Position numbers and translations under genes: made by a program
NCBI RefSeq assembly: GCF_902806315.1
Contig: NZ_CADCWD010000052.1
Span: forward strand, 1-64,000
DNA from: an uncultured Sphingosinicella sp.
GTDB lineage: Bacteria; Pseudomonadota; Alphaproteobacteria; Sphingomonadales; Sphingomonadaceae
Direction of reading: 5' to 3'
Length of the DNA stretch: 64,000 nt
The notes under the pieces: generated by a model
Seen by the model: only the letters and a program-made list of their open reading frames with translations
What the model was told of the DNA's origin: nothing
Databases searched by the model: none
Shown here: positions 39,982 through 56,414 of the stretch, one piece after another
Position numbering within the stretch: position 1 is the first letter of the stretch
Layout: each line of letters begins with the position of its first letter

Positions 39982-40695
39982 ATGCGACACCTAGTGATGG
40001 CTGCTGCGGCTCTGGCCGTCGCCTCTGCCACTCCTGCGGCGGCGGCCGTTATCATCAGTGCGGATCGGCTGTCGGCGAAGCTCACCACGAATGAGGCTGC
40101 CAGTTTCGCCGTCGAGACATTTGGATCTGCGGGCGATGCCGGGACCGACCTTTATGGTCTGCGCGCCCTGCTGCAGTTCGATCTGATCGGCGGGTTCAAC
40201 ACCAACGTGCTGACGTTCCGTTACACGCTCGAGAATACGTCCTTTGCCAACAATCTTGGCTCCAGCACGGCCGTTTTCGGCTTCAACGTCGCGCCGGACG
40301 CGACGCTCAAGGTGCTGACTGGTCCGTTCGACCTCGGCAAGGGCGGCAACTTCAGTGGCATGGGGAAGCGCGAGTTCTGCATTTACGATGGGTCCAACTG
40401 CAACGGCGGCGGCAATGAGGGTGTGTTCATGAACACCCCTCAAAACATCGCCAGCGGCAAGATGACGAAGGCAATCGGAACATTCACCCTGACCTATGGC
40501 AATCCGGGGCCCACCTCGATCGTGATGAGCGATTTCGTCACGCGCTGGCAGCGAGTGGGCATCAATCAGCAGCAGTCGGCGTCCGGATTCGGCAGCGTTG
40601 TGCCGGAGCCGGAAACCTGGGCGATGATGATTGCTGGTTTTGGCCTTGTCGGCGGGGCGATGCGTCTCCGCCGCCGCGAACTCGCAATCGCCTGA
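39982..40695 (+). CDS. PEPxxWA-CTERM sorting domain protein
   Basis: This 237-residue exported protein has a signal peptide (VMAAAALAVASATPAAAA). The C-terminal sorting signal is VPEPETWAMMIAGFGLVGGAMRLRRR, the alphaproteobacterial PEPxxWA form. Exosortase cleaves such signals during export of surface proteins, usually along with exopolysaccharide. The body is a Gly/Asn/Thr-rich beta domain with one Cys pair (FCIYDGSNC). No exosortase gene is in the window. It is convergent with the sensor kinase gene. Confidence 0.92.
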   Translation: MRHLVMAAAALAVASATPAAAAVIISADRLSAKLTTNEAASFAVETFGSAGDAGTDLYGLRALLQFDLIGGFNTNVLTFRYTLENTSFANNLGSSTAVFGFNVAPDATLKVLTGPFDLGKGGNFSGMGKREFCIYDGSNCNGGGNEGVFMNTPQNIASGKMTKAIGTFTLTYGNPGPTSIVMSDFVTRWQRVGINQQQSASGFGSVVPEPETWAMMIAGFGLVGGAMRLRRRELAIA

Positions 40696-40700
40696 AGTTC

Positions 40701-42041
40701 TTAGATCACGATCCGGAACAGGGCGCCGCCTTCGGGTGAGCGGTCGAGGCTGATCGACGCGCGGTGCGCCAGCACGACCTGGCGCGCCAGACTGAGGCCG
40801 ACGCCCGTGCCGCTGGCCTTGGTGGTGAAGAAGGGCAGGAACACCTCCTGCTGCAGCGACTCCGCCACTCCCGCACCGTTATCTCCCACCTCGATTTGAG
40901 TGCGGCCGCCCTTGGTGAGCGCGAACGACAGGGTAACGGTTGGCTCCGCTGCGTGAACAGAAGCGGCTTCCGCGCCATTCTTGAGCAGGTTCAGGAGCAC
41001 CTGGCACATGAGGTCGGGATCGACGTCCAGCGTGAGGCTCTCCGGAGTCAGGTCGAGCGCGAGAGCGACCGACCGGCCCGCATCGCTCGCCCGGAACAGG
41101 GATTTGAGTTCCCGTGCCCAGGGCAGCACCTCGAACTGCCGTCGCCGTACCTCTGGCGTGCGACTGATCTGCCGGTAGCTTTCGACGAAACCCATTACCC
41201 CGTCCGCCCGGCGGGCCAGCGTCTCGACGGCAGCACGTGCGTCGGCGACATCGGGGTCCGCGCCCCGATCAACCTGGGCCATCAGGTCGGCTGCGGTGTG
41301 CGCCAGCGAAGTGACCGGTGTCATGGAGTTCATGATTTCATGGGTCAGCACACGAACGATGTCACTTTGCGCCGCAAGCTCAACCGCATTGAGTTCGCTC
41401 TGGATCGGCTGGACCGCGATCACCCGCACCAGCCCCCCCAAACGGTGCACGGTCGCGGCGCTCACCATCGCGCTTTGCGGGATCGCGTCGAGCGTCAGCG
41501 GGACCAGCCGTGATGCGCCGGCACCCAGCTCAGTAAGCGCCCCCGCGAAGGATTTCCCGTAGGTCTCGAAATCCTCCACGCGCACGCCGTTGTGCCTGGC
41601 GAGCATCTTTCGTGCCGCCTTGTTGGCAAGTTCCACCTTTCCGGCGCCGTCGACGGTCAGCAACGCCGTTGGGGCGTCGTCCAGTACCGCCTCGAAAAAC
41701 CGATTGTCGTCGCTGAGGCGATGCCGCTCCTCCCGAAGCCGCCGGATGCCCTGTTCGAGCGCCTCGCCGAACTCGCCGAATCCGCTCCCCTGCCCCCGGT
41801 GCGAGAAGCTTTGCGAAAGGTCGCCGAATCTCACCGCGTCCACGAAGCGCGCCAACTCGATATTAGTCTGCTGCACGAACCGCCACACACCGACGATCGC
41901 TCCCAGGCAGATCAGGCCGGCCAGCAGCCGCGCTGCACCCAAACCTTCCACGTCGAGCGAATAGACGAAGCCGAACGCCGTCAGCAGCAGCAATGCCATG
42001 CGCCACAGCAGGCCGAAGATGAAGCTACGCCGGAGGCTCAC
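40701..42041 (-). CDS. Membrane sensor histidine kinase (NtrY-like) of the exporter system
   Basis: This 446-residue kinase has two N-terminal membrane helices (about 12-28 and 36-52) with almost no loop between them. A HAMP-like linker and a PAS domain (DDAPTALLTVDGAGKVELANKAARKML) follow. The HisKA region contains VRVLTHEIMNSMTPVTSL. The ATPase domain has LLNLLKNGAEA, EVGDNGAGV and GTGVGLSLARQ. It is encoded 30 bp downstream of the sigma-54 activator on the same strand and should be its partner. The tiny periplasmic part suggests it senses membrane state or a membrane protein. Confidence 0.9.
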   Translation of the reverse strand: MSLRRSFIFGLLWRMALLLLTAFGFVYSLDVEGLGAARLLAGLICLGAIVGVWRFVQQTNIELARFVDAVRFGDLSQSFSHRGQGSGFGEFGEALEQGIRRLREERHRLSDDNRFFEAVLDDAPTALLTVDGAGKVELANKAARKMLARHNGVRVEDFETYGKSFAGALTELGAGASRLVPLTLDAIPQSAMVSAATVHRLGGLVRVIAVQPIQSELNAVELAAQSDIVRVLTHEIMNSMTPVTSLAHTAADLMAQVDRGADPDVADARAAVETLARRADGVMGFVESYRQISRTPEVRRRQFEVLPWARELKSLFRASDAGRSVALALDLTPESLTLDVDPDLMCQVLLNLLKNGAEAASVHAAEPTVTLSFALTKGGRTQIEVGDNGAGVAESLQQEVFLPFFTTKASGTGVGLSLARQVVLAHRASISLDRSPEGGALFRIVI

Positions 42042-42071: not shown

Positions 42072-43472
42072 CTAGAGCCCATGCTTATCCATGCGCCGGT
42101 AGAGCGATGCACGGGTCAGCCCGAGCTCCGCCGCGGCGAGCGAAATATTGTAAGAATGCTTCTTCAGCGCCGCTTCGACCATTTGCCTTTCGGCACGATC
42201 GAGGTTGAGATCCGCCGCGGCAGTCGGCGGCGGCGGGAGGGTTGTCGTCCTGGGCGTAAAGCTGCGGGAGAGCGAGAAATCCTCGACTGTGAATGCATCG
42301 TCGCCGGCGAGAATGACGGCGCGCTCCGCCGCATGCCGCAGCGCGCGCACATTGCCCGGCCACTCATAGGCAACCAGCGCTGCCGCCACCTCCGGCAGCA
42401 GGCGCCGCGAAGGCTTGCCATATTTTTTTGAATATGCCGCGACATAATGGTCGATCAGCAAAAGTATGTCTTCGCGCCGCTCGCGCAGCGGCGGAAGCTC
42501 GATTTCGACAGTGTTGAGGCGGAAGAGCAGATCCTGGCGGAAAAGGCCCTCGTCGCCGAGCCGCTCCGGCGGCAGGTTGGTCGCCGCGATCACTCGCACG
42601 TCGATCGGCACGGGCCGGTTCGCCCCGACCGGGATCACCTGCCGCTGTTCGAGGGCTGTTAGCAGCTTGGGCTGGAGGTGGAGCGGCAGGTTGCCGACCT
42701 CGTCCAGGAACAAGGTCCCGCCGTCAGCCGCCTGCAGCCGACCGATGCGGTCGCCGCGCGCATCCGTGAAGGCGCCTTTCACGTGCCCGAACAGCTCGGA
42801 CTCGAACAGATTCTCGGCTACCGCCCCCAGGTCCACGGAGACGAGCACCTGGTCCGCTCGGCGCGACCGGCGGTGGAGTTCGCGCGCGGCCAGCTCCTTG
42901 CCCGTGCCGTTCTCCCCTAGAATCAGAACGTTCGCCTCGGTGGGTGCGGCCCGCTCGATCAGTGACATGACTCGCGCCATGCCGGGCGAGCTGCCGAGCA
43001 GCATCGCTTCCGCGCCGGCGGCTGGCGCGGTCACCGCCGCAACGCGCTTGCGCTCCGTTTCGACCTTCTCGCGGGAATTACGAAGCGCCGCGGCGGTGCG
43101 AACGGTCGCGAGCAGCCGCTCGTTCGACCAAGGCTTGGATACGAAGTCGGTCGCCCCGCGCTTCATCGCCTCGACGGCGATCTGGATGCCGCCATGCGCC
43201 GTGATCATCACCACGACGGCTTCGGGATCCCGCTTCAATATTTCGCCGAGCCACTGGAAACCTTCAGCGGCATTGGTCGCCCCGCGCCCGAAATTGGCGT
43301 CGAGCAGGATAACGTCCGCCGGCCCCGCATTCATCGCATCGATCGCTTCTCCCGGGACTTGGAAGGTAGCGACGTCTTCGAATAGGTCGCGCAGCAGCAG
43401 CCGCGCCGACAACAGGATGTCGGGATCATCGTCGACGACGATGCACCGCGCGAATGCTTTCCCCCGCTTCAC
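42072..43472 (-). CDS. Sigma-54-dependent response regulator (NtrC family, GAFTDA variant)
   Basis: This 466-residue activator has a receiver domain (IVVDDDPDILLSARLLL, phospho-acceptor Asp58 in VILLDANFG). The AAA+ domain has Walker A GENGTGKELAARELH and Walker B GGTLFLDEVGNLPL, and a Fis-type helix-turn-helix ends it (NISLAAAELGLTRASLYRRM). The sigma-54 contact loop reads GAFTDA instead of the canonical GAFTGA. It starts with GTG after AGGAGAAGTAGG. It is divergent from the exporter operon, whose start region carries a -24/-12 promoter and repeated palindromes. Confidence 0.93.
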   Translation of the reverse strand: MKRGKAFARCIVVDDDPDILLSARLLLRDLFEDVATFQVPGEAIDAMNAGPADVILLDANFGRGATNAAEGFQWLGEILKRDPEAVVVMITAHGGIQIAVEAMKRGATDFVSKPWSNERLLATVRTAAALRNSREKVETERKRVAAVTAPAAGAEAMLLGSSPGMARVMSLIERAAPTEANVLILGENGTGKELAARELHRRSRRADQVLVSVDLGAVAENLFESELFGHVKGAFTDARGDRIGRLQAADGGTLFLDEVGNLPLHLQPKLLTALEQRQVIPVGANRPVPIDVRVIAATNLPPERLGDEGLFRQDLLFRLNTVEIELPPLRERREDILLLIDHYVAAYSKKYGKPSRRLLPEVAAALVAYEWPGNVRALRHAAERAVILAGDDAFTVEDFSLSRSFTPRTTTLPPPPTAAADLNLDRAERQMVEAALKKHSYNISLAAAELGLTRASLYRRMDKHGL

Positions 43473-43528
43473 CCTACTTCTCCTAAAGCCTCGACAAGGA
43501 TGCGCGAAACAATTTCCGTGCCAGCGGC

Positions 43529-43563
43529 CGTTCGAGATCGAACATGATGTCCGTTTGCGAACA
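43529..43563. promoter_or_regulatory. Paired upstream activator sites for the exporter promoter
   Basis: CGTTCG-AGAT-CGAACA (43529-43544) and TGTCCG-TTTG-CGAACA (43548-43563) are two copies of one 16-bp palindrome pattern, TGTYCG-N4-CGRACA. Their centres are 19 bp apart, about two helical turns. They end 55 bp before the -24 element and lie upstream of the regulator gene too. Confidence 0.7.
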
Positions 43564-43618
43564 CTCGCTGGCCGGCCGCTTCGTCGAGAAATCCCGCTTT
43601 TCCGCCAGTCCGACCAAC

Positions 43619-43634
43619 TGGCACGCCTTGTGCT
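43619..43634 (+). promoter_or_regulatory. Sigma-54 (-24/-12) promoter of the exporter operon
   Basis: TGGCACG-CCTT-GTGCT matches the sigma-54 consensus TGGCACG-N4-TTGCW with one mismatch, and the GG and GC are exactly 10 bases apart. Transcription would begin near 43645, before the 49-residue ORF. Confidence 0.8.
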
Positions 43635-43681
43635 CAGTATCGGGCACAGGGGTTCACAATAGTTTTTCGGGGAGACAGGAA

Positions 43682-43831
43682 ATGTCTAATCTACAGTCCT
43701 TGCTCGGCGGAGCGGTCTGGATGGCGATCGCCACCGTGCTGATGCTCGCCACCTTCGAGCCAGCGCCCGGGCTCGGCAGCGACGCGCAGTTCGCGGCAGT
43801 GAAGGTTGCCGCCGGCTATGCGGACGCTTGA
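43682..43831 (+). CDS. Small membrane protein, 49 residues, first gene of the exporter operon
   Basis: ATG 43682 follows GGGGAGACAGGAA. The protein begins MSNLQSLLGGAVWMAIATVL, includes one hydrophobic helix (residues 8-24) and ends AAVKVAAGYADA. It sits between the sigma-54 promoter and the adaptor gene; the longer track ORF would begin before the proposed transcription start. It could be a sensor, a regulator of the kinase or exporter, or a secreted cargo peptide. Nothing in the sequence decides between these. Confidence 0.65.
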   Translation: MSNLQSLLGGAVWMAIATVLMLATFEPAPGLGSDAQFAAVKVAAGYADA

Positions 43832-43840
43832 GACGCGATG

Positions 43841-43877
43841 TGTTCGCTGGCGAACGCGCTGTGTCCGAATTCGGACA
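43841..43877. promoter_or_regulatory. Second pair of regulator-type palindromes, before the adaptor gene
   Basis: TGTTCG-CTGG-CGAACG (43841-43856) and the perfect palindrome TGTCCG-AATT-CGGACA (43862-43877) follow the same pattern as the upstream pair, with centres 21 bp apart. They end 24 bp before the adaptor ATG. Confidence 0.6.
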
Positions 43878-43901: not shown

Positions 43902-45212
43902 ATGAGTGTGGTGAGAATGCAATCCGCGCCTGAGACCAAGGCGGTGAGCGGCGGCGGTATGGACCGCGTCGTCGAGAAGAAGGGCATCCCCCAGCGGGTG
44001 AAGCTCGGCATCGGCGCGGCCCTCATCGTCGCCGCCGCGAGCGGCTTCTACCTCATGGCGCCGGACGCGAGCAGCCAGACGATCGCGGCTGACCGGGTGA
44101 CCATTTCCACGGTGAGCCAGGGCCGCTTCGACGACTTCCTGCCGCTGCGCGCCCGAGTGACGCCGCTCGTCACTGTTTTCCTCGATGCGGTGGAAGGCGG
44201 CCGCGTGGAGAAGGTGCTCGTCGAGGACGGGGCCATGGTTCAGCAAGGCCAGCTCCTCGCCGCTCTCTCCAATTCCGACCTGCAATTGAACCTCCTCGCC
44301 CGACAGACGGAGGTGACGCAGCAGATCAACTCGATGCGCAGCCAGGAGCTCGCGCTGTCCCAGAACCGGCTCCAGAACGAGCGCACTCGGATCGAAGCGG
44401 AGCTCGCGGCCAGCAAGGCGCGTCGGCAATTCGAGATGCAGCGCCCGCTCGCGGACAAGGGCTTTGTGCCCGGCAAAACCTTCCGCGACAGCCAGGACGA
44501 GGCGCAGTCGGCCAGCCGACGCGCTCAGGTGGTCCGCCAGACCCAGGCGACGGACGAGAAGCTGCAATCCTCGCAGCTCGCTCAGCTCCGGGCCTCCACT
44601 ACGGCACTGAACGCGAGCCTCGGCATCGCCCGCGCCAGCCTCGACGCGCTCAACCTGCGCGCTCCGGTCACGGGCCAGCTCACCGCATTTTCCATCCAGG
44701 TGGGGCAATCGATGAACCGCGGCGAACGGCTCGGCCAGATCGACAGCGCCGGGCGCAACAAGCTGGTCGCGCAGGTCGACGAATTCTATCTCGGCCGCGT
44801 CGTGCCGGGCCAGATCGCCACCGCCGAATGGGGCGGCAAAAGCTACCGGCTGAAGGTCGCGAAAATCTACCCGCAGGTAAAGAACGGCACCTTCGAGGTG
44901 GACTTCCAGTTCATCGGGGCGGAGCCGCCCGAGTTGCAGCGTGGGCAAACCCTGCAGACGCGGCTGACGCTCGGCGATCCCGCGCCTGCTTTGCTGATCC
45001 CGAACGGCGCCTTCTACAACGAGACCGGCGGATCCTGGGTGTTCGTGGTGACGCCCGACGGCTCCGAGGCGATCAAACGCCAGGTCCGGCTCGGCCGCCG
45101 CAATGCCGATTATATCGAAGTGCTGGACGGGCTGGAGCCCGGCGAGCGCGTCCTCACCTCACCTTACACCGGTTTCGCCGACAAGGATCGGCTCGACCTC
45201 GCAGCCAAATGA
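43902..45212 (+). CDS. Periplasmic adaptor of the ABC exporter (HlyD/MacA type)
   Basis: This 436-residue membrane fusion protein has one N-terminal membrane helix (KLGIGAALIVAAASGFYLMAP). A lipoyl half-motif (GGRVEKVLVEDGAMVQQGQLLAALSN), a long coiled coil rich in Gln, Glu and Arg (about residues 120-225), and the second half-motif (RAPVTGQLTAFSIQVGQSMNRGERLGQI) follow. The C-terminal part is a beta-barrel domain. It should link the inner-membrane permeases to an outer-membrane channel. AGGAGGG precedes the ATG. The ATPase gene follows 11 bp after its stop. Confidence 0.9.
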   Translation: MSVVRMQSAPETKAVSGGGMDRVVEKKGIPQRVKLGIGAALIVAAASGFYLMAPDASSQTIAADRVTISTVSQGRFDDFLPLRARVTPLVTVFLDAVEGGRVEKVLVEDGAMVQQGQLLAALSNSDLQLNLLARQTEVTQQINSMRSQELALSQNRLQNERTRIEAELAASKARRQFEMQRPLADKGFVPGKTFRDSQDEAQSASRRAQVVRQTQATDEKLQSSQLAQLRASTTALNASLGIARASLDALNLRAPVTGQLTAFSIQVGQSMNRGERLGQIDSAGRNKLVAQVDEFYLGRVVPGQIATAEWGGKSYRLKVAKIYPQVKNGTFEVDFQFIGAEPPELQRGQTLQTRLTLGDPAPALLIPNGAFYNETGGSWVFVVTPDGSEAIKRQVRLGRRNADYIEVLDGLEPGERVLTSPYTGFADKDRLDLAAK

Positions 45213-45223
45213 AGGAGCCGTCC

Positions 45224-45904
45224 ATGCTTGCCATGCGTGATCTATCGAAGGTCTACCGCACCGAAACCATCGAGACCGCCGCGCTGGACGGGATCGAACT
45301 GGACATCGCCGCTGGCGAGTTCGTCGCGATCATGGGTCCGTCAGGGTGCGGCAAATCGACGCTGCTCAACATCATCGGCATGCTCGATAGCCCGACGAGC
45401 GGCTCCTACGTCTTCAACGGCCAGGAGGTGGCGGGGCTGCCAGAGGGCAAGCTCGCCGACGTCCGCAAGAAGAACCTCGGCTTCATCTTCCAAAGCTTCA
45501 ACCTGGTCGACGAGCTCAGCGTCCGCGAGAATGTCGAGCTTGCTTTGCTCTACCACAATGTTCCCGCCTCCGAGCGCCGCCAGCGCGCCGATACCGTGAT
45601 GGACAAGGTCGGCATCGGCCACCGCGCCAAGCACCGGCCGAGCCAACTTTCGGGCGGACAGCAGCAGCGTGTTGCGGTCGCCCGCGCCCTGGTCGGCAAC
45701 CCAAAGCTGATCCTCGCCGACGAGCCGACCGGCAACCTCGACACGCAGCATGGCGAGGAGGTCATGAAGATGCTCCAGGCGCTCAACCGCGAAGGATCGA
45801 CCATCGTCATGGTCACGCACTCACCGGGCCATGCCGATTATGCCGGGCGCGTGGTGAACATGCTCGACGGCCGCATCCTCCAGGAGAGGCGCCGCGCGGC
45901 GTGA
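45224..45904 (+). CDS. ABC exporter ATPase (MacB/LolD class)
   Basis: This 226-residue ATPase starts [27 protein letters not shown]. Walker A is [15 protein letters not shown], the signature [15 protein letters not shown] and Walker [14 protein letters not shown], with H-loop [11 protein letters not shown]. These are hallmarks of the MacB/LolD/FtsE class that works with FtsX-type permeases. ATG 45224 follows AAGGAG with good spacing; ATG 45209, overlapping the adaptor stop, is an alternative. It is the only ATPase for four downstream permeases. Confidence 0.95.
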
Positions 45905-46386
45905 GAAGGCTGAGCCTCAGCGTCGCTGCGGTTCTGGCGGTTGTGCCGCTCGGCGGCCCCACCTCCGCCCAGACGCGCAGCCAAGCCAGCGTGCTCATGT
46001 CCGAGAGCGAGCAGGGCCGGCAGTTCCAGGAGGAATATGGCTTCAGCGACGCCGTGATCGTTGGCGATACCATCTACCTTTCGGGCCTGGTGGCCGGCAC
46101 GCGGCTTGGCGAGACCGACATGAAACCGGCTTTTGACCGAGTCTACAAGAGCATCGGCGCGATCCTGAAACGTGCCGGCGCCAGCTTCGGCGACATCGTC
46201 GACATGACCAGCTTCCACACCGACGTGGAGGCGCAATTGAAGCCCATGTCCGAGGTCCACAAGACCTATGTGAAGGCGCCCTACCCCGCCTGGACCGCGA
46301 TCGGCGTCGCCAAGATCCTCGGCAACGGCATCACCGAAATCAAGATCACCGCCCGGCGCCCCGCGGCTGCCGGCATCCGGAAATAA
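45901..46386 (+). CDS. Exported Rid (YjgF/YER057c/UK114) family protein lacking the usual Arg
   Basis: This 161-residue protein begins with a GTG overlapping the ATPase stop. It has a signal peptide (LSVAAVLAVVPLGGPTSAQ), so the Rid domain should be periplasmic. The domain is recognisable: YGFSDAVIVGDTIYLSGLVAG, YKSIGAILKRAGASFGDIVDMT and YPAWTAIGVAKILGNGITEIKITA. In RidA deaminases the segment matching YPAWTAIG reads FPARS with a catalytic Arg, replaced here by Trp. A deaminase role is therefore unlikely; ligand binding in the exporter pathway is more plausible. Confidence 0.85.
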   Translation: MRRLSLSVAAVLAVVPLGGPTSAQTRSQASVLMSESEQGRQFQEEYGFSDAVIVGDTIYLSGLVAGTRLGETDMKPAFDRVYKSIGAILKRAGASFGDIVDMTSFHTDVEAQLKPMSEVHKTYVKAPYPAWTAIGVAKILGNGITEIKITARRPAAAGIRK

Positions 46387-46398
46387 GGAGCGAAGGCG

Positions 46399-48903
46399 AT
46401 GTGGCGCAATTATGTGACTGTCGGCGTCCGGGCGCTTGCCAAGAACAAGACCTATGCCTTCATCAACATCTTCGGTCTGGCGCTCGGCCTTGCCGCTTGC
46501 CTGATGATCCTGCTCTTCGTGCGCAACGAGCTGAGCTACGACAAGGATCTACCCGGCGCCTCGCAGGCTTTTCAATTTCAATCCTTCTTCACCGATCGGG
46601 ACACTGGTGAAGTCGATAAGCTCCAGATGGCGCCCTACGTCTCCAAGGATGCTCTCAAGAAAGATTTTCCCCAAATCGAAAATGCAGTGCACGCCCTCGC
46701 TACGGGACCGACCGTGCTCAAGGGCGGCCAGGCTTATGCGACGGAGGACGTCCGCTACGTCGACGGCGATCTGCTCGACATCCTGCAATTCCCTTTGCTG
46801 AAGGGCAATCGCGAGACGGCGCTCGATCAGGTCGGCTCGCTCGTCCTGACGGAAACGGAAGCGCGCAAATATTTCGGTGCCGAGGACCCGATGGGCAAGA
46901 CGCTTACATTCTCGCAGCGCGGACAGCAGACCGACTTCCGCATCACCGGCATTCTCAAGGACCTCCCCAAGAACACGCATTTCGCGGCGACCATGATCGC
47001 CCGCTACGACCCGCAAAGCTACTGGGCCGACCAGAAGGATTTCATGACCCAGTGGGGCTGGCAGTCGGGCTGGGTCTACGTAAAGCTGCGCCCCGGCGCC
47101 GACCCTGACGCAATCAACGCCCAGATGGAAGCCTTCGAGAAGCGCAACATTCCCGACCAGGTTTTCGGCGGCCAGCGCACCAACCAGGGCGACTTTTCCG
47201 AGTTCAAGCTGGCCAACATCGCCGAAATCCATCTCGGCGATGCGCAGAACGCTGCGATGACTCCGGGCAATGACCGGCGCTCGATCATCACCTTCGCGGT
47301 GGTCGCGGCTTTGATCCTCGCAATGGCGTGCATCAACTTCACCAACCTCGCCACCGCCCGCGCCAGCCAGCGTGCCCGCGAAGTCGCGCTGCGCAAGGTG
47401 CTCGGCGCCAACCGGAAGCAGCTCGTCACGCAGTTCCTGGGAGAGTCGGTGCTCGTCGCCTCCTTCGCGATGCTGCTCGCCTTGGCCTTCGTCGAGGTTT
47501 CGCTGCCCGCTTTCGGCGAGTTCGTGAATGCCGACCTCCAGATGCGCTATATCGGCGAGGGCGGCCTTATCCTTCCGATTGTCGCCCTCGTGCTCCTGGT
47601 CGGAGCGGCAGGCGGCGTCTATCCGGCCTTCTACCTGTCGCGTTTTCAGCCCGCCAAGGTGCTGAAGGCCAACAAGTCGGCCGCCGAAGCACAGGGCTCC
47701 GGCTCGTTCCGCAATATCCTGGTGGTGGCGCAGTTTGCAGTGTCGATCGGCCTCATCATCTGCACCGCGATAGTGTACGCCCAGACCCTTCATGCGCGCA
47801 CAGCCGATCCCGGCTACAAGCGCGACGGGCTCCTTCAGCTCGAGGGGGTGGGCCGGCGCGAGATGTTCCCGGTTACCGAGACCCTGATCCGTGAACTGAA
47901 GCGGATCGACGGAGTCACCCATGTGGGCCGCACCGGAATCGGCATCGCAACCCGCAACAACACGAATACCGGCGTGCAGATGCCCGGCCGCAACGATCCG
48001 ATCAACATCGGCTATTACAGCGTCGACGGCGGCTTCCTGGAAGCGATGGGTATCAAGCTGCTCGCCGGCCGCGCGTTCGACGAGAACCGGCCGATGGACG
48101 ACACGACCACGCCGTTCCCGGAGGATCCGGCCGCCGAGCGGGCGCTGATCGCGCGCGGCAGCAACGTGGTGCTGAACGAGCTTGCCGTGCGCAAGCTCGG
48201 CCTCGGCACCCCGCAAGCGGCGATCGGCAAGACCATCAAGATCACCGTCAGCCCGGAATATGGGGGCGTGACGAACGCCACTATCATCGGCGTCGCCCAG
48301 AATTCCCGCTTCCGCTCGGTCCGCGAGTCAATCGACCCAGTCATCTTCAGGTTCAGCCGCATGGGCCAGGGCTGGATGGTGATCCGCTACAATGCCACCG
48401 ACCCGGCGCGCGTTCGCCGCGACGTCGAAGCGGTTTGGAAGCGCATCGCGCCCGAGGTGCCGTTTCAGGGCGAGTTCTCAGAAGAGATCGTGGGGGAGCT
48501 CTACGAGGCGGAGGAAGCGCGTGCGCAGACCTTCGCAGGCTTCGCGATCCTGGCAGTGATCGTCGCCTGCCTCGGCCTGTTCGGCCTCGCCGCCTTCACC
48601 GCCGAGCGGCGCACCAAGGAGATCGGCATCCGGAAGGTGCTGGGCGCCCGTAGCCGCGACATCGTGCGGCTGCTGACGTGGCAATTCTCCAAGCCCGTGA
48701 TCGTGGCCAACCTGATCGCCTGGCCGGTCGCCTGGTGGGTGATGCGGGACTGGCTAAACACGTTCGACACCCGCATCGACCTGGGGCCGACGCCCTTCGT
48801 GCTCGCCGGGGTCCTGGCGCTCGCAATCGCCATCGGCACCATCGCCGGGCATGCGATGAAGGTCGCTCGGGCGAACCCCATCAACGCGCTCCGCTACGAG
48901 TAG
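46399..48903 (+). CDS. FtsX/MacB-like double-domain ABC permease, copy 1
   Basis: This 834-residue membrane protein begins MWRNYVTVGVRALAKNKTYA and has the layout helix, MacB periplasmic core domain, three-helix FtsX block, helix, second periplasmic domain, three-helix FtsX block. Both FtsX blocks carry the coupling helix motif (ALRKVLGANRKQL near 330, GIRKVLGARSRDI near 745), showing internal duplication. It starts 12 bp after the Rid gene. This type resembles the permeases common in Bacteroidetes exporters. It should work with the single ATPase upstream. Confidence 0.92.
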   Translation: MWRNYVTVGVRALAKNKTYAFINIFGLALGLAACLMILLFVRNELSYDKDLPGASQAFQFQSFFTDRDTGEVDKLQMAPYVSKDALKKDFPQIENAVHALATGPTVLKGGQAYATEDVRYVDGDLLDILQFPLLKGNRETALDQVGSLVLTETEARKYFGAEDPMGKTLTFSQRGQQTDFRITGILKDLPKNTHFAATMIARYDPQSYWADQKDFMTQWGWQSGWVYVKLRPGADPDAINAQMEAFEKRNIPDQVFGGQRTNQGDFSEFKLANIAEIHLGDAQNAAMTPGNDRRSIITFAVVAALILAMACINFTNLATARASQRAREVALRKVLGANRKQLVTQFLGESVLVASFAMLLALAFVEVSLPAFGEFVNADLQMRYIGEGGLILPIVALVLLVGAAGGVYPAFYLSRFQPAKVLKANKSAAEAQGSGSFRNILVVAQFAVSIGLIICTAIVYAQTLHARTADPGYKRDGLLQLEGVGRREMFPVTETLIRELKRIDGVTHVGRTGIGIATRNNTNTGVQMPGRNDPINIGYYSVDGGFLEAMGIKLLAGRAFDENRPMDDTTTPFPEDPAAERALIARGSNVVLNELAVRKLGLGTPQAAIGKTIKITVSPEYGGVTNATIIGVAQNSRFRSVRESIDPVIFRFSRMGQGWMVIRYNATDPARVRRDVEAVWKRIAPEVPFQGEFSEEIVGELYEAEEARAQTFAGFAILAVIVACLGLFGLAAFTAERRTKEIGIRKVLGARSRDIVRLLTWQFSKPVIVANLIAWPVAWWVMRDWLNTFDTRIDLGPTPFVLAGVLALAIAIGTIAGHAMKVARANPINALRYE

Positions 48904-48913
48904 GAACCTAAAG

Positions 48914-51412
48914 ATGTGGCGCAACTACCTGACCGTCGGCCTCCGGGCTCTTGCCAAGAACAGGACGTACGCCTTCATCAACATCTTCGGCCTGGCGATC
49001 GGCATGGCCGCCTGCCTGATGATCCTGCTCTTCGTGCGCTACGAGTTGAGCTACGACGGCTGGATCGCCGACAGCGACCGCGTTTTCCAGTTCCAGAGCT
49101 GGTACAAATCGGACGAGACCGGCGAGGAGAACAAGCTCCAGATGACGCCGTGGATCGCGGGTGAGCGACTGGGCAAGGATTTCCCGCAGGTCGAACACCG
49201 CGTCTACGGTTTCACGACGACGCCCGTCTTCATCAAGGACGGCCAGGCCTCGACGATCGAGGACTTCATGTTCGTCGACGCCAATTTCCTGAAGGTGTTC
49301 CCGCTGCCGATGCTCCGCGGCGACGGCGAAGCGCTGAACGCGCCGAATACCGTGGTGCTGACCCAGAAGGAGGCGCGCCGCCTCTACGGCACCGACAATG
49401 TGATTGGCCGCACTCACAGCGTCATCAGCCGCGGTCAGACGCGGGACATGCGCATCACCGGCATTCTCAAGGATCTGCCGACCAACTCGCACCTCAAACT
49501 CTCGACGGTGGCGCGGATCGACTATCCGCAGTTCAACGCCGACACGCCGCAGCAGATGGAATGTTGGGGCTGCCAGAATGGCTGGGTTTGGGCCAAGCTG
49601 AAGAAGCCGTCGGACGCCGAGGCGATCCAGGCCGCACTACCGGCTTGGGAAAAGCGCAACATCCCCGACGAGAATGCGGGCGAGGCGCGCTTCAACGCCG
49701 GTGACGAGCAGGACTGGCATCTGGTCAATCTGGAAGACATCCACCTTGGCGAGGCCCAAGACGGCGCAATAACGCCCGGAAACGACCGGCGTACCATTAT
49801 CACGTTCGCCGTCATCGCCTTGCTGATCCTGGGAATGGCGGTGGTGAACTTCACCAATCTGGCAACCGCTCGCGCCAGCCAGCGCGCGCGAGAGGTGGCG
49901 CTGCGCAAGGTGCTCGGCGCCAACCGCCGGCAGCTCGTCATCCAGTTCATCGGCGAGTCCGTGCTGATCTCGAGCATCTCGATGCTGATCGCGCTCGCTC
50001 TGGTCGAGCTGCTGCTGCCGTCCTTTGCCGCCTTTCTGAAGGCGGAGATGGACATCAGCTATTTCGGTTCGGGCGGCGTGATCCTGCCTGTGCTGGCGCT
50101 GGTGCTGACGGTCGGCGTGCTTGGCGGGCTTTATCCCGCCTTCTTCCTGTCGCGCTTCCAGCCGGCCTCCGTGCTCAAGGCGAACAAGAGCTCGGCCGAG
50201 ACCGCCGGCACCGGGCGGTTGCGCAGTGCTTTGGTGATCGGTCAGTTCGCCGTGTCGATCGGCCTCATCATCTGCACCGCCATCATCTACGGCCAGACGG
50301 TTTACGCCCGTACCGTGGATCCCGGCTACAAGCGCGATCACATCCTGCAGGTCGATGAGCTCGCCCGTTACCAGCTCCTCGGCAAGGGCGAAGCGATCGC
50401 GGAGCAGACGCGGCGCGTGCCGGGCGTGGCTGCGGTCGGACGCACCACCATCGGAGTCGCAACCGACAACAACAACAATACCGGCGTGATGGTCCCCGGC
50501 CGGACCGAGCCGACCACCATCGGCAATTACACCGTCGACGAGGGTTTTCTGGAAGCGATGGGAATGACCATGCTCGCCGGCCGCTGGTTCGACGAGAAGC
50601 GGCCGATGGACGACATGACCCTGCCCTACCCGCCGGATCCCGTCGCAGAGCGGGCGCTGGCCGCGCGGGGGGCCAATGTCGTCGTCAACGAACTCGCGGC
50701 GGAGCGGCTGGGCTTCAAAGACCCGGAGCAGATCGTGGGAAAGACCTTCCGCTCGGCTCTGGTCGATAACGAGATCGGCCTCGTTCCGGTCACGGTGATC
50801 GGCGTTCTAAAGAACGCGCGATTCCGCGACATCCGTCAGCCGCTCGATCCGATCATGTTCCTCAATTCCAACAGCGGCCATACCCACATGATCGTGCGTT
50901 TCCAGGGCAACCCCCAGGCCGCGCGCGCGGGCGTCGAGCGCGCCTGGCAGGCGATCACCCGCGAGGTGCCGTTCAACGCCGACTTCAGCGACGACGTGAT
51001 GATCGAGCTCTACGAAGCGGAGGATGCCCGCGCAAAGACCTTCGCCGGCTTCGCGATCCTGGCGGTGATCGTCGCCTGCCTGGGTCTCTACGGCCTGGCG
51101 GCGTTCACCGCCGAGCGGCGCACCAAGGAGATCGGCATCAGGAAGGTGCTGGGCGCACGCAGCCGCGACATCGTGCGGCTGCTCGCCTGGCAATTCTCCA
51201 AGCCCGTCATCATCGCCAACCTCATCGCCTGGCCGGTCGCCTGGTGGGTGATGCGTGACTGGCTCAACAGCTTCGACACGCGGATCGACCTCGGACCGAC
51301 CCCGTTCGTGCTCGCCGGCCTTCTCGCCCTCGCCATTGCGATCGGCACCATCGCCGGTCATGCCCTGAAGGTCGCTCGCTCCAACCCGATCCGCGCGCTC
51401 CGGTACGAGTGA
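48914..51412 (+). CDS. FtsX/MacB-like double-domain ABC permease, copy 2
   Basis: This 832-residue paralogue of copy 1 starts 10 bp after it. The first 50 residues (RNYLTVGLRALAKNRTYAF) and the last 120 are nearly identical to copy 1, while the periplasmic domains differ more. Both coupling motifs are intact (ALRKVLGANRRQL and GIRKVLGARSRDI). Differences in the first periplasmic domain include a Cys pair (MECWGCQNGW) absent from copy 1. The divergence pattern suggests the permeases keep a common membrane engine but bind different partners. Confidence 0.92.
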   Translation: MWRNYLTVGLRALAKNRTYAFINIFGLAIGMAACLMILLFVRYELSYDGWIADSDRVFQFQSWYKSDETGEENKLQMTPWIAGERLGKDFPQVEHRVYGFTTTPVFIKDGQASTIEDFMFVDANFLKVFPLPMLRGDGEALNAPNTVVLTQKEARRLYGTDNVIGRTHSVISRGQTRDMRITGILKDLPTNSHLKLSTVARIDYPQFNADTPQQMECWGCQNGWVWAKLKKPSDAEAIQAALPAWEKRNIPDENAGEARFNAGDEQDWHLVNLEDIHLGEAQDGAITPGNDRRTIITFAVIALLILGMAVVNFTNLATARASQRAREVALRKVLGANRRQLVIQFIGESVLISSISMLIALALVELLLPSFAAFLKAEMDISYFGSGGVILPVLALVLTVGVLGGLYPAFFLSRFQPASVLKANKSSAETAGTGRLRSALVIGQFAVSIGLIICTAIIYGQTVYARTVDPGYKRDHILQVDELARYQLLGKGEAIAEQTRRVPGVAAVGRTTIGVATDNNNNTGVMVPGRTEPTTIGNYTVDEGFLEAMGMTMLAGRWFDEKRPMDDMTLPYPPDPVAERALAARGANVVVNELAAERLGFKDPEQIVGKTFRSALVDNEIGLVPVTVIGVLKNARFRDIRQPLDPIMFLNSNSGHTHMIVRFQGNPQAARAGVERAWQAITREVPFNADFSDDVMIELYEAEDARAKTFAGFAILAVIVACLGLYGLAAFTAERRTKEIGIRKVLGARSRDIVRLLAWQFSKPVIIANLIAWPVAWWVMRDWLNSFDTRIDLGPTPFVLAGLLALAIAIGTIAGHALKVARSNPIRALRYE

Positions 51413-51422
51413 GCGCGGCAGG

Positions 51423-53909
51423 ATGTGGCGAGCCCATCTGCTGATCGCCGTCCGGCTGCTGGCGCGCAACCGCGTCTATGCCGCGATCAACATCGGTGGG
51501 CTCGCGCTCGGGCTGGCCGGGTGCCTGCTGATCCTGAGCTACATCCGCTACGAGCGCAGCTACGATGCTTGGCTGCCGGACAGCGAGCGCATCTACCAGG
51601 TGCAGGCCACCTGGACCGAACCGGGCCAGCCGGTGAGACGCTCGCAGAACAGTCCTTTCCCGCTGCGCGAGACGCTCGCCAAGGCTTTCCCTCAGATCGA
51701 GACGCTCAGCGTGATGAGCAATGGCCAGACCGTGCTGACGCGCGACGGCGAGCCGATTTTCCTCGATTGGGCCGGCGTCGATCCGAGCTTTTTCGAGATC
51801 CTCCAACTGCCCTTCGTCAGCGGATCGGCGAAGACCGCGCTCCCAGACAACAACACGATCGTGCTGACCGAGAGCGAGGCCGTCCGGCAGTTCGGCACCG
51901 CCGACGCGGTGGGGCGAACGATCGCGCTCGGCGCCGGGGAGGGGAAGCGCGACCGTCGCGTCGGCGGCGTGCTGAAGGACCTGCCGAAGAACAGCAGCCT
52001 GAAGCTGACGGTCGTCGCACGCTACAACCCCGCCGATTATGACTGGATGCCGCCCGAGGCGAAGGGCTGGAGCAACATGGGCCAGCAGCATTATGTGAAG
52101 CTGCGCGCGGATGCCGATGCGAAAACGATCAATGCCGCCCTCCCCGCCTGGGAGAAGCGCGTGGTCGCGCCGGAACTGAAGGAAGGCAAGCCGTCCGCAT
52201 CGGCCGACATGCTGGAGCTGAAGCTCGTTCCGGTCAGCGAGGTTCATCTCGGCCAGGCCCAGGAAGATGCGCTGCAGCCCGGCGGCGATCCGCGAACGCT
52301 CGCCACCTTCGCGGTGGTGGCGCTGATGACGCTCGGTATGGCCGTGATCAACTTCGTCAACTTGTCGACCGCGCGCGCGACACAGCGAGCGCGCGAGTTG
52401 GCGCTGCGCAAGGTGCTCGGCGCCCGACGCGGTCAGCTCGTCGTTCAGCTGCTCGGCGAGTCCCTGCTGATGGCCGCGGCCGCCATGCTTGTCGCCCTCG
52501 CCTTGGTGGAAGTGGCGACGCCCTGGCTCGGCAGCTGGCTCGGCGCGGAGCTGAAGATCGCCTATCTCGGCGACCATGGGATGCTAATCCCGGCGCTTCT
52601 CCTCCTTGCCCCCACCGGCATCCTCGGCGGCCTGTATCCCGCGCTCTACCTGAGCGCCTTCCAGCCCGCGACCGTGCTCCGCGCCGGCAGGACCGCCCGT
52701 GAGACGCCCGGCAAGGGAAGGCTGCGCGCAGCGCTCGTAGTGGTGCAGTTCGCGATCGCGATCGGCCTCATCGTCTGCACCTCGATCATCTACTCGCAGA
52801 CGCGCTACGTGGAGACGGTCGACCCCGGCTATCGCCGCGACGGCCTGATCCAGATCGACGCCGCCTGGCGCTTCGCCGGAAGTGACCGCTACGGCCCGGC
52901 GCGGGCCCAGCTGCTCGCGGTGCCCGGCGTGGTCGCGGCCGGCCGCACCAACCTGGGCGTCGCCGCCGAGAACAAGAACGTCGCGGCCGTCCGCCGGCCC
53001 GGCGCCCCGCAGGACCTCTCGATCGGCCTTTATGCGGTCGACCCGGATTTCTTCCGCACGACGGAGATGGGGCTGCTCGCCGGCCGCTTTCTCGGCGAGC
53101 GGTTCGCGCGAGACCTCCTCACGCGAGTTGGGGAAGTCGGCCCACCCACTCCGGACCTGGCATCGCGCGGCATCAATGTGGTCGTAAACCGCTCCGCCGT
53201 GAGGATGCTGGGCTTCGGCTCGCCGAGCGCCGCGATCGGGCAATCCGTTCAGATCGGGATAGACGGGGGGGCGCTCACGCCATCGACGATCGTGGGCGTG
53301 GTCGGCGACACGCGCATCCGCACCGCGCGCGAGGCGATCGAGCCGCTTATCTACACCTATGACCCGTTGCGCACGAGCCAGGTGATCGTCCGCTATGCGG
53401 CCGCCCATCCGGGCGAGGTGATGGACGGCATCAGCGCCGTCTGGCGCCGGTTCGAGCCTGAGATACCGTTTCAGGGGCGCTTCGCCGAGGACATCATCGC
53501 GGAGGTCTATGCCGCTGACCGCGCGCGCGGCGGCGTGTTCGCGGCGTTTTCCGCGCTGGCGATCATCATCGCCTGCCTCGGCCTCTACAGCCTCGCCGCC
53601 TTCGCGACCGAGCGGCGGACGAAGGAGATCGGCATCCGCAAGGTTCTGGGCGCCAAAGTGCGCGACATCGTGCGCCTGCTCGCCTGGCAGTTCTCCAAGC
53701 CCGTCATCATCGCCAACCTCGTCGCCTGGCCGGTCGCCTGGTGGGCGATGCGCGACTGGCTCAACACATTCGACGCGCGGATCGCGCTCGGGCCCGGCCC
53801 CTTCTTGGTCGCCGGTTTGCTGGCGCTCGGCATCGCGATCGGGACTGTCGCGGGGCACGCGCTGAAGGTTGCCCGCACCAATCCGATCCACGCGCTGCGC
53901 TACGAATAA
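51423..53909 (+). CDS. FtsX/MacB-like double-domain ABC permease, copy 3
   Basis: This 828-residue copy is the most divergent at the N-terminus (MWRAHLLIAVRLLARNRVYA). It keeps both coupling motifs (ALRKVLGARRGQL and GIRKVLGAKVRDI) and the C-terminal WQFSKPVIIANLVAWPVAWW block. The second periplasmic domain lacks the Asn-rich TRNNTNTG-type segment of copies 1 and 2 (ENKNVAAVRRPGAP here). It starts 10 bp after copy 2. Confidence 0.92.
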   Translation: MWRAHLLIAVRLLARNRVYAAINIGGLALGLAGCLLILSYIRYERSYDAWLPDSERIYQVQATWTEPGQPVRRSQNSPFPLRETLAKAFPQIETLSVMSNGQTVLTRDGEPIFLDWAGVDPSFFEILQLPFVSGSAKTALPDNNTIVLTESEAVRQFGTADAVGRTIALGAGEGKRDRRVGGVLKDLPKNSSLKLTVVARYNPADYDWMPPEAKGWSNMGQQHYVKLRADADAKTINAALPAWEKRVVAPELKEGKPSASADMLELKLVPVSEVHLGQAQEDALQPGGDPRTLATFAVVALMTLGMAVINFVNLSTARATQRARELALRKVLGARRGQLVVQLLGESLLMAAAAMLVALALVEVATPWLGSWLGAELKIAYLGDHGMLIPALLLLAPTGILGGLYPALYLSAFQPATVLRAGRTARETPGKGRLRAALVVVQFAIAIGLIVCTSIIYSQTRYVETVDPGYRRDGLIQIDAAWRFAGSDRYGPARAQLLAVPGVVAAGRTNLGVAAENKNVAAVRRPGAPQDLSIGLYAVDPDFFRTTEMGLLAGRFLGERFARDLLTRVGEVGPPTPDLASRGINVVVNRSAVRMLGFGSPSAAIGQSVQIGIDGGALTPSTIVGVVGDTRIRTAREAIEPLIYTYDPLRTSQVIVRYAAAHPGEVMDGISAVWRRFEPEIPFQGRFAEDIIAEVYAADRARGGVFAAFSALAIIIACLGLYSLAAFATERRTKEIGIRKVLGAKVRDIVRLLAWQFSKPVIIANLVAWPVAWWAMRDWLNTFDARIALGPGPFLVAGLLALGIAIGTVAGHALKVARTNPIHALRYE

Positions 53910-53924
53910 GGGAGGAACACAGAC

Positions 53925-56414
53925 ATGTGGGGCAATTACCTGACCGTGGCGCTAAGGGCGCTGACGAAGAGCCGGACCTATGCGTTCATCAACATCTTCG
54001 GCCTGGCGATCGGGCTCGCCGCATGCCTGATGATCCTGCTCTACGTCCGCTACGAGACGAGCTACGATAGCTGGCTGCCCGACGCCGAGCGTATCTACCA
54101 GGTCCAGGCGATCCCCACGAGCGAGGACATTGCCGAGCGTGTGCCGCAGCAGGGAGCCCACGGCGTTGTCGCGGAATCCCTCGCCCGCGCATTTCCGGAG
54201 GTCGAGGCGGCGACCCGCGCCGAGGGCCAGGCGATGAACATCATGCAGAAAGGCGAAGCCGTTTCCCTGGAGATGCTCGCCGCAGAGGATAATTTCTTCC
54301 GGATCCTGCAGCTTCCCTTCATTCGAGGCGACGGTAGCCGCGCCCTCGCTGACATGAACAGCACCGCCATCAGCCGGTCTCAGGCCATGACGCTCTTCGG
54401 CAGCGTCGACGTCGTGGGCCGCACGATCGACGGCAGTGTCCGGGGCGAGCCTTACAGCCTTCGCGTGAGCGGCGTGTTCGAAGACCTTCCGCGCAACAGC
54501 CACATGTTCTTCTCGATGGTCCGGCGGATTACCGGCGAGGAAAAGGAGCAGTGCGGCTGGACCTGCATCAACGGCAATGTCTATCTGAAGCTGAGGCCCG
54601 GGGTCGACGCGGACTCGATCAATGCGCGCCTCCCGCAATGGGAGCGCCGCGACATCCCGGCGCGCAACGTCGCCGGGCAGCGGGTGAGCGAGGGCGACCT
54701 CTTCGACTGGCGTCTCGTCAATGTCCGGGACGTGCACCTGAGCGGTGCCGAAGGCGCGGAGGAGCGGCCGGGCAACGACCGCCGCACCGTCATGACCTTC
54801 AGCATAATCGCCATCCTGATCCTGTCGATGGCCTCGATCAACTTCATCAACCTCGCCACCGCCCGCGCGGGACAGCGCGCGCGCGAAGTGGCGCTGCGCA
54901 AGGTGCTCGGCGCCCGGCGGGGGCAGCTCGTCACGCAGTTCCTCGGCGAATCCATGCTGATCACAGGGGTCGCCCTCCTGATCGCTCTGGCGCTCGTCGA
55001 GCTCAGCCTTCCCTACATGTCGTCGGTGCTCAACGCCGAGTTGAACGTCACCTATGTCGGAGAAGGCGGGATCGTGCCGATCGTGCTGCTGCTGTGGCTC
55101 TCCGTCGGCGTTGCGGGCGGCCTCTACCCGGCCTTTTATCTCTCCCGCTACCAGCCCGGCGAAGTGCTGAAGGCCAACAAGTCCTCGGCGGAACCGCGAG
55201 GCACCGGCCGCCTCAGGGGCATATTGGTGGTCACCCAGTTCGCTGTGTCGATCGGGCTCATCATTTGCACGATGATCGTCTACGCCCAGACGCTCTTTAC
55301 GCAGCAGACCGATCTCGGCTTCCGCCGCGACGGCCTGATCCAGGTCTCCGGCCTCAATCGCGCGCAGGTCATCCCCGCCCGCGAACAGCTGATGCGTCGC
55401 GTGGCCGCGCTCGACGGGGTGGAGGGCGTCACCGCGGGAGGCATCTGGGTCGCGAGCGGGCAGACGCTCAACACGGACGTGCAGATCCCGGGGCGCTCCT
55501 CGCTCCCGCTCATCGGCTTTTACAGCGTGGAACCCAAGTTCTTCGACACGCTCGGCATCCGGCTGCTCGCGGGGCGGGTGCTTTCCCAAAACTTTGCCAA
55601 GGACAATGCCTATACGCCCTACGAGCCTGAAGAGGCCGTTGAGCCTGCACAGCGGGCAATGGTGGAGCGGGGGATCAGCATCGTCGTCAACGAGAATGCC
55701 GCCAGGCGCATGGGCTTTGCGAGCCCGGAGACTGCCGTGGGCAAGACCGTCCGGGTCAACATGTTCGGGGAGGAGCTCGGCATGGCGCCCGCGACGATCG
55801 TGGGCGTGGTGGCGGACAGCCGCTTCCGCTCGCTCCGCGAGGCGGTCGAGCCGACCATCTTCTACGACCGGGGCATCTATTCGCGGATGATTGTCCGCTA
55901 TCGCTCTGCCGATCCGCAAGCTCTCCGCGAGCGGATCCAGCGCGTCTGGCGAGAGATGTTCCCGGACGTGCCCGTCGACGCCGAGTTCGCTGATGCGCAG
56001 CTCGCCGAGCTCTACACGAGCGACGCGGCGCGCGGCCGCACCTTCGCCAGCTTCACGCTGCTGGCAGTGGTGATCGCCTGCCTCGGCCTGTTCGGCCTCG
56101 CCGCCTTCACGGCCGAGCGGCGCACCAAGGAGATCGGCATCCGCAAGGTATTCGGCGCAGGCGTGCGCGACATCGTTCAGCTGCTCGCCTGGCAGTTTTC
56201 CAAGCCGGTGATCGTCGCCAACCTGATCGCCTGGCCGGTCGCCTGGTGGGTGATGCGCGACTGGCTGAACGGGTTCGACGCTCGCATCGCGCTGACGCCG
56301 GGGCCGTTCCTGCTCGCCGGCTTCATGGCCCTCGTGATCGCGATCGGGACCATTGTCGGCCATGCCGTGAAGGTCGCCCGAACGAACCCCATCCACGCGC
56401 TGCGTTACGAATAA
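53925..56414 (+). CDS. FtsX/MacB-like double-domain ABC permease, copy 4
   Basis: This 829-residue copy closes the operon, 15 bp after copy 3 with GGGAGGAA upstream. It retains the double architecture and the first coupling motif ALRKVLGARRGQL; the second reads GIRKVFGAGVRDIVQLL, a slight variant. A Cys pair lies in the first periplasmic domain (EEKEQCGWTCINGN) at the place where copy 2 has one. All four copies end with NPI-ALRYE. No further export gene follows, and no outer-membrane channel is encoded here. Confidence 0.92.
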   Translation: MWGNYLTVALRALTKSRTYAFINIFGLAIGLAACLMILLYVRYETSYDSWLPDAERIYQVQAIPTSEDIAERVPQQGAHGVVAESLARAFPEVEAATRAEGQAMNIMQKGEAVSLEMLAAEDNFFRILQLPFIRGDGSRALADMNSTAISRSQAMTLFGSVDVVGRTIDGSVRGEPYSLRVSGVFEDLPRNSHMFFSMVRRITGEEKEQCGWTCINGNVYLKLRPGVDADSINARLPQWERRDIPARNVAGQRVSEGDLFDWRLVNVRDVHLSGAEGAEERPGNDRRTVMTFSIIAILILSMASINFINLATARAGQRAREVALRKVLGARRGQLVTQFLGESMLITGVALLIALALVELSLPYMSSVLNAELNVTYVGEGGIVPIVLLLWLSVGVAGGLYPAFYLSRYQPGEVLKANKSSAEPRGTGRLRGILVVTQFAVSIGLIICTMIVYAQTLFTQQTDLGFRRDGLIQVSGLNRAQVIPAREQLMRRVAALDGVEGVTAGGIWVASGQTLNTDVQIPGRSSLPLIGFYSVEPKFFDTLGIRLLAGRVLSQNFAKDNAYTPYEPEEAVEPAQRAMVERGISIVVNENAARRMGFASPETAVGKTVRVNMFGEELGMAPATIVGVVADSRFRSLREAVEPTIFYDRGIYSRMIVRYRSADPQALRERIQRVWREMFPDVPVDAEFADAQLAELYTSDAARGRTFASFTLLAVVIACLGLFGLAAFTAERRTKEIGIRKVFGAGVRDIVQLLAWQFSKPVIVANLIAWPVAWWVMRDWLNGFDARIALTPGPFLLAGFMALVIAIGTIVGHAVKVARTNPIHALRYE

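Follow-up and report, generated by a model that had tools for sequence, protein, structure and literature searches.

Which protein reads the paired palindromes of the form TGTYCG-N4-CGRACA that flank a sigma-54 promoter upstream of a transporter operon, and what do they control? We addressed this question in a stretch of 64,000 nucleotides from an uncultured Sphingosinicella sp., hereafter the window, whose relevant features are collected in Table 1. The four palindromes claimed by a previous reading of the letters alone (the sequence-only reading) were all recovered where it had placed them, two upstream (U) and two downstream (D) of the promoter P_A, with one outer mismatch in two of the four. 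The starts of the palindromes are 19 bp apart in the U pair and 21 bp apart in the D pair, in agreement with the proposed spacing of about two helical turns. Single sites alone are unexceptional, with 19 in the window at up to two mismatches against 10.7 expected. We derived a position weight matrix from the 71 sites conserved at 28 orthologous regulator loci, and it found exactly two pairs spaced 18-25 bp in the window, U and D, and none in 20 shuffled versions of it (1.28 Mb). The scan of the genome for further pairs that the same reading had proposed yielded, in the list of sites with at most one mismatch across the whole 2.69-Mb assembly, just one extra pair, at C28:21815-21850 before pcm-tolC; the regulon of this genome, derived by searching for patterns with mismatches allowed, may not be complete. 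It is highly likely that the paired palindromes are the predicted operators of the divergent response regulator, taking the whole explanation with its role for the D pair, and we are more confident still of the explanation apart from the D-pair enhancer step.

Table 1 Features of the window that belong to the predicted regulatory circuit.
Feature	Position	Strand	Details
Sensor histidine kinase	40701..42041	-	Pfam HATPase_c, PAS_8; adjoins regulator in relatives too
NtrC-family response regulator	42072..43472	-	Pfam Response_reg (PF00072), Sigma54_activat (PF00158), HTH_8 (PF02954)
Sigma-54-like box P_RR, TGGCACG-GAAA-TTGTT	43508-43523	-	Faces regulator gene; putative autoregulated promoter
Operator U1, CGTTCGAGATCGAACA	43529-43544	.	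1 outer mismatch; matrix score 16.9 (shuffled 99.99% = 5.9)
Operator U2, TGTCCGTTTGCGAACA	43548-43563	.	Exact; matrix score 22.4
Sigma-54 promoter P_A, TGGCACG-CCTT-GTGCT	43619-43634	+	Predicted start ~43645; box here in 28/28 orthologous loci
Small exported protein ORF, 49 codons	43682..43831	+	First gene after P_A
Operator D1, TGTTCGCTGGCGAACG	43841-43856	.	1 outer mismatch; matrix score 13.6
Operator D2, TGTCCGAATTCGGACA	43862-43877	.	Exact, full 16-bp palindrome; matrix score 25.4
Periplasmic adaptor, MacA/DarC-like HlyD family	43902..45212	+	RND_mfp subfamily; under the cut-off of the DarC model (E 7.6e-56)
ABC ATPase, MacB/LolD type	45224..45904	+	ORF translation; start 45224 or 45209; 66-85% conserved in relatives
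RidA/L-PSP-type small enzyme, inserted in operon	45901..46386	+	Pfam PF01042
Four consecutive MacB/FtsX-type permeases	46399..56414	+	Pfam MacB_PCD + FtsX (first, fourth); ADOP model (first); sequence (others)

The divergent NtrC-type regulator gene and the -24/-12 element at 43619 were both anticipated and both stand. The regulator has its full domain set, namely a receiver, a sigma-54 AAA+ domain and a Fis-type HTH, and P_A has a GG-GC gap of 10 bp and, compared with TGGCAYR-N4-TTGCW, departs once, in the -12 part TTGCW. The start of U2 lies 71 bp from the P_A box. In the regulator, the loop that contacts sigma-54 reads GAFTDA rather than GAFTGA, at positions that are invariant or nearly so in 22 orthologs. 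The same GAFTDA change in NorR relaxes regulation. GAFTDA is among the natural loop variants expected to retain activation (PMC4641369), and with the ortholog-conserved loop an altered activity of the regulator is conceivable. The adjoining kinase carries two hydrophobic N-terminal segments that leave hardly any periplasmic loop between them. In this it resembles kinases that sense within the membrane or through a transporter. A gene for a PEP-CTERM protein (39982-40695) lies directly beyond it.

To see how far this arrangement is shared, we compared orthologous regulator loci. Orthologous regulators (about 64-74% identity) were found in 23 of 151 genomes of the family, and these genomes together with five more named loci make up the 28-locus set. 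A transporter-facing -24/-12 box was present at every one of the 28 loci, and upstream sites at nearly all. Measured start to start, the distance between the box and its nearest upstream site fell into clusters one helical turn apart (47-48, 55-60, 68-71 and 79-83 bp, and once 104 bp), and the distance measured for U2 in the window lies inside the 68-71 cluster. Across 35 site-promoter distances the period was about 11 bp with R = 0.75, compared with null maxima of 0.57-0.60 in 5,000 random or jittered sets, kinship of loci having been removed for two near-identical siblings only. The combination of a site and a -24 pattern occurred in 11 of the 23 regulator-bearing genomes and in none of 21 genomes without the regulator, and spaced pairs with at most two mismatches were confined to regulator-bearing genomes (0/17 of the others). 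Two single-site matches outside the clusters, at L033 and L035, look like chance. Co-occurrence of sites with rpoN (PF04552) is uninformative as evidence, because rpoN was present in all 44 genomes searched, that is, this one and 43 relatives. The comparison strongly supports the layout that had been expected for an NtrC-type regulator: pairs and box are conserved with the divergent regulator gene and absent without it.

Many regulator families use short palindromes of this kind, and a different protein, for example a TetR- or LexA-like repressor, could bind these and have come to lie beside the NtrC-type gene by chance. However, across genomes the spaced pairs go with the regulator gene, their distances to sigma-54 boxes are helically phased, and they appear again in front of homologous regulators from other phyla, which together leave this explanation the slightest of chances. 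For the last point, we applied the matrix to the 600 bp in front of each of 71 related regulators, which are mostly from Bacteroidota and share 43-54% identity, and found sites at 37 of the 71 loci against 1.1 expected and pairs at 14 loci against 0 expected. The operator is thus probably old and probably travels with the regulator subfamily. The palindromes look functional, and they reach further than the sequence-only reading had recognised.

Under the preferred reading of the palindromes as operators of the divergent regulator, phosphorylated regulator dimers would bind the U pair, the phosphorylation presumably coming from the adjacent kinase. The bound dimers would assemble the AAA+ oligomer and open the sigma-54 RNA polymerase at 43619. 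Transcription from P_A would then run through the small exported protein gene, the MacA-type adaptor, the ATPase and the four MacB-type permeases. Through its copy of the code, pcm-tolC would provide the outer-membrane channel, and the sigma-54-like box facing the regulator gene would make the switch autoregulatory.

This last box, P_RR, was overlooked in the promoter layout first proposed, in which the divergent regulator was correctly placed. It lies next to the U pair, with U1 only 5 bp upstream of it. On the regulator strand, no more than about 110 bp from the gene, a box of the form GGCRYG-N5-TG was found at 17 of the 28 loci against 0.67 expected, most commonly as TGGCACG-N4-TTGAT, and at about 10 loci its -12 element is immediately adjoined by an operator. 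This placement suggests that the regulator gene is autoregulated, with an operator positioned to block P_RR, so the regulator may also act as a repressor. The unusual -12 element, with GA or GT replacing GC, may make P_RR a weak or leaky promoter.

The adaptor had been taken as the immediate target of P_A, and this has to be corrected: a small exported ORF precedes it. We searched each locus for an ORF of 30-126 codons that is preceded by a Shine-Dalgarno sequence, starts 27-72 bp after the start of the box and has a strongly hydrophobic N-terminal segment. Such an ORF lies between P_A and the adaptor gene at 21 of the 22 loci with room for one, against 0.09 expected. The position of this first gene is conserved and its sequence hardly so. 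First genes at L004, L007 and L011, and also an ORF at L183, match the UrcA family TIGR04433 at more than 25 bits. The ORF of the window, whose C-terminal end reads ...SDAQFAAVKVAAGYADA, has no Pfam or NCBIfam match and falls short of the 25-bit TIGR04433 cut-off; by its appearance, though not by model score, it is possibly a shortened UrcA protein.

Behind the small gene, an adaptor, an ATPase and MacB_PCD/FtsX permeases are encoded in one operon, as in operons of the MacAB type, the permeases lying at 46399-48903, 48914-51412, 51423-53909 and 53925-56414. The inserted RidA/L-PSP-type gene encodes an apparent signal peptide, and in most of the relatives examined a permease follows close behind the ATPase.

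The extra pair of this genome is on contig C28, 57 bp ahead of a sigma-54 box that matches the consensus in full (TGGCACG-GCTC-TTGCT). Downstream come a PCMT gene and then tolC, the latter identified as family TIGR01844. A pair with a sigma-54 box was also found at pcm-tolC in L047 and L060 and, in weaker form, in L052. It was absent from all seven genomes without the regulator that were examined at this locus, including two of the same genus. As a general rule the recruitment of pcm-tolC fails, with only 4 of the 23 regulator-bearing genomes having it, one of them weakly. In this genome, pcm-tolC is very probably under the same regulator code and would supply the outer-membrane channel. Judged from these sequence comparisons, the regulator very probably switches on the MacB-type exporter, the small exported protein and, elsewhere in the genome, the TolC partner.

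Other candidate loci were noted in relatives. In one genome (G013) an UrcA gene apart from the cluster, at L183, has both a pair and a sigma-54 box; in this region (G013:C16, 4560-5150) the pair is 80 bp before the box, no large gene evidently follows, and a second box at 5130, identical in its 16 bases to P_A of the window, precedes an ORF for a secreted protein. At L184 (G013:C7, 2660-2860) a pair is found downstream of a sigma-54-like box, before a gene for a DUF2807 (GIN domain) protein. At L185 (G141:C53, 3110-3681) a pair stands about 122 bp from a sigma-54 box, ahead of a small exported ORF of 44 codons and a gene with a PspC domain; the locus hints at an envelope-stress theme.

The role of the D pair required a separate comparison. 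D pairs occur at 14 of the 28 loci, and at six of them (L006, L011, L015, L020, L025 and L077) a second sigma-54 box follows 56-70 bp after the pair, just before the adaptor gene, which argues that the ancestral role of the pair was probably activation. At the remaining eight, including the window, there is no second box, and the pair lies 16-73 bp (mostly no more than 40 bp) before the adaptor start. On the regulator tree, loci of the two kinds are intermixed, and their distribution requires at least five changes. The D pair of the window would be derived from, or equivalent to, the activator pair of this second adaptor promoter, which is missing here.

Nothing with fewer than five mismatches to a sigma-54 box follows D2 in the window, where relatives have the box, and the pair could accordingly be read as a functionless remnant of a lost second promoter. 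Against decay of this kind, D2 holds the matrix maximum, a score that no sequence could exceed, and strong D pairs have been kept at all eight loci lacking the second promoter, across those same changes on the tree; we regard a relic as improbable. A second possibility is that D1 and D2, which would be transcribed from P_A and could form stems of about 6 bp, act as RNA hairpins ahead of the adaptor ribosome-binding site. This is very hard to reconcile with the D sites matching the U operators, which P_A does not transcribe, and with the D pairs sharing both the matrix and the roughly two-turn spacing of the U pairs, and its probability is accordingly very low.

A full U pair was present at all 14 loci without a D pair and at 7 of the 14 with one (Fisher p = 0.006, in a test that makes no correction for relatedness among loci and varies with the score threshold). 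At L019 the sole pair lies downstream of the sole transporter-facing sigma-54 box, and L184 has this same pair-after-box layout at another gene. These two layouts, together with the loss of a full U pair only where a D pair is present, favour a downstream-enhancer role. The retention of the D pair in the window and the L019 and L184 layouts point, tentatively and with not quite an even chance, to an additional downstream enhancer of P_A.

The main competitor is repression, in which regulator bound at D would halt the elongating polymerase as a road-block or loop to U, and the small protein would therefore be made in excess over the transporter. D2 is about 15 bp 5' of the adaptor Shine-Dalgarno sequence, D pairs at other loci with no second promoter end at or near the start codon, and the operator abutting the -12 element of the regulator's own box in many relatives is in a position suited to repression. 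However, the activator distance of the D pair from the second promoter in six relatives speaks against it, and the pattern of U-pair loss is a better fit to activation, so that we consider repression unlikely, if a shade less so than a relic. A more speculative and improbable scheme makes the small protein the exporter's cargo or signal: Sec would export it, the MacB-type pump would take it up from the periplasm, and the co-regulated TolC would release it, with the kinase reporting its flux and the D pair setting the ratio of cargo to pump.

With TGTYCG-N4-CGRACA pairs phased to sigma-54 boxes as its predicted operator code, an uncharacterised regulator family extending from Sphingomonadales to Bacteroidota gains a concrete signature, so that its regulon can be read from genomes. 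The code would place an exporter and TolC in one regulon with a small exported protein that had been overlooked. The loci also form a natural series of promoters for testing enhancers placed upstream of, downstream of or overlapping a sigma-54 promoter.

In the NtrC/NtrB system, operators come in pairs with a spacing of about two helical turns and lie upstream of a -24/-12 promoter. The window shares this enhancer logic, with its predicted operators likewise paired upstream of a -24/-12 promoter, and differs in operator sequence, targets and loop motif (GAFTDA); as an NtrC ortholog the regulator was rejected, at 314 bits against a cut-off of 559. Several spellings of the operator consensus returned no published counterpart in the open-access literature, most subscription papers and regulon databases being outside this scope, and the nearest described operator found was that of QseF, TGTC-N10-GACA (PMC8745638), compared with TGTC-N8-GACA and a fixed inner CG..CG in the window. 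QseF/GlrR of enterobacteria, which acts at the glmY and rpoE promoters, is likewise a two-component activator of the NtrC family; its sigma-54 promoters also have TGTC...GACA palindromes upstream, and its regulon is related to the envelope (PMC6075780), whereas the targets here are an exporter, tolC and small exported proteins. Assignment as GlrR was rejected on both score (258.5 bits against the NF011695 cut-off of 763) and the N10 operator spacing.

UrcA of Caulobacter, a periplasmic protein of unknown function, is also a small periplasmic protein under a two-component system, but its gene is controlled by UzcR through another motif and without a sigma-54 activator (PMC8963506); several relatives' first genes match UrcA and the small ORF of the window does not. 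The exporter resembles MacAB-TolC and the darobactin exporter DarBCD in its HlyD-type adaptor, separate ATPase and MacB_PCD/FtsX permeases, and in a TolC-type channel that is apparently co-regulated in this genome. It differs from these in having four tandem permeases, in an adaptor and permease that score under the DarC and DarB cut-offs, and in that no radical SAM enzyme or precursor peptide was recognised. The class of mechanism is an ordinary one, the enhancer logic of the NtrC family, and the regulator, operator, regulon and small first gene are apparently new.
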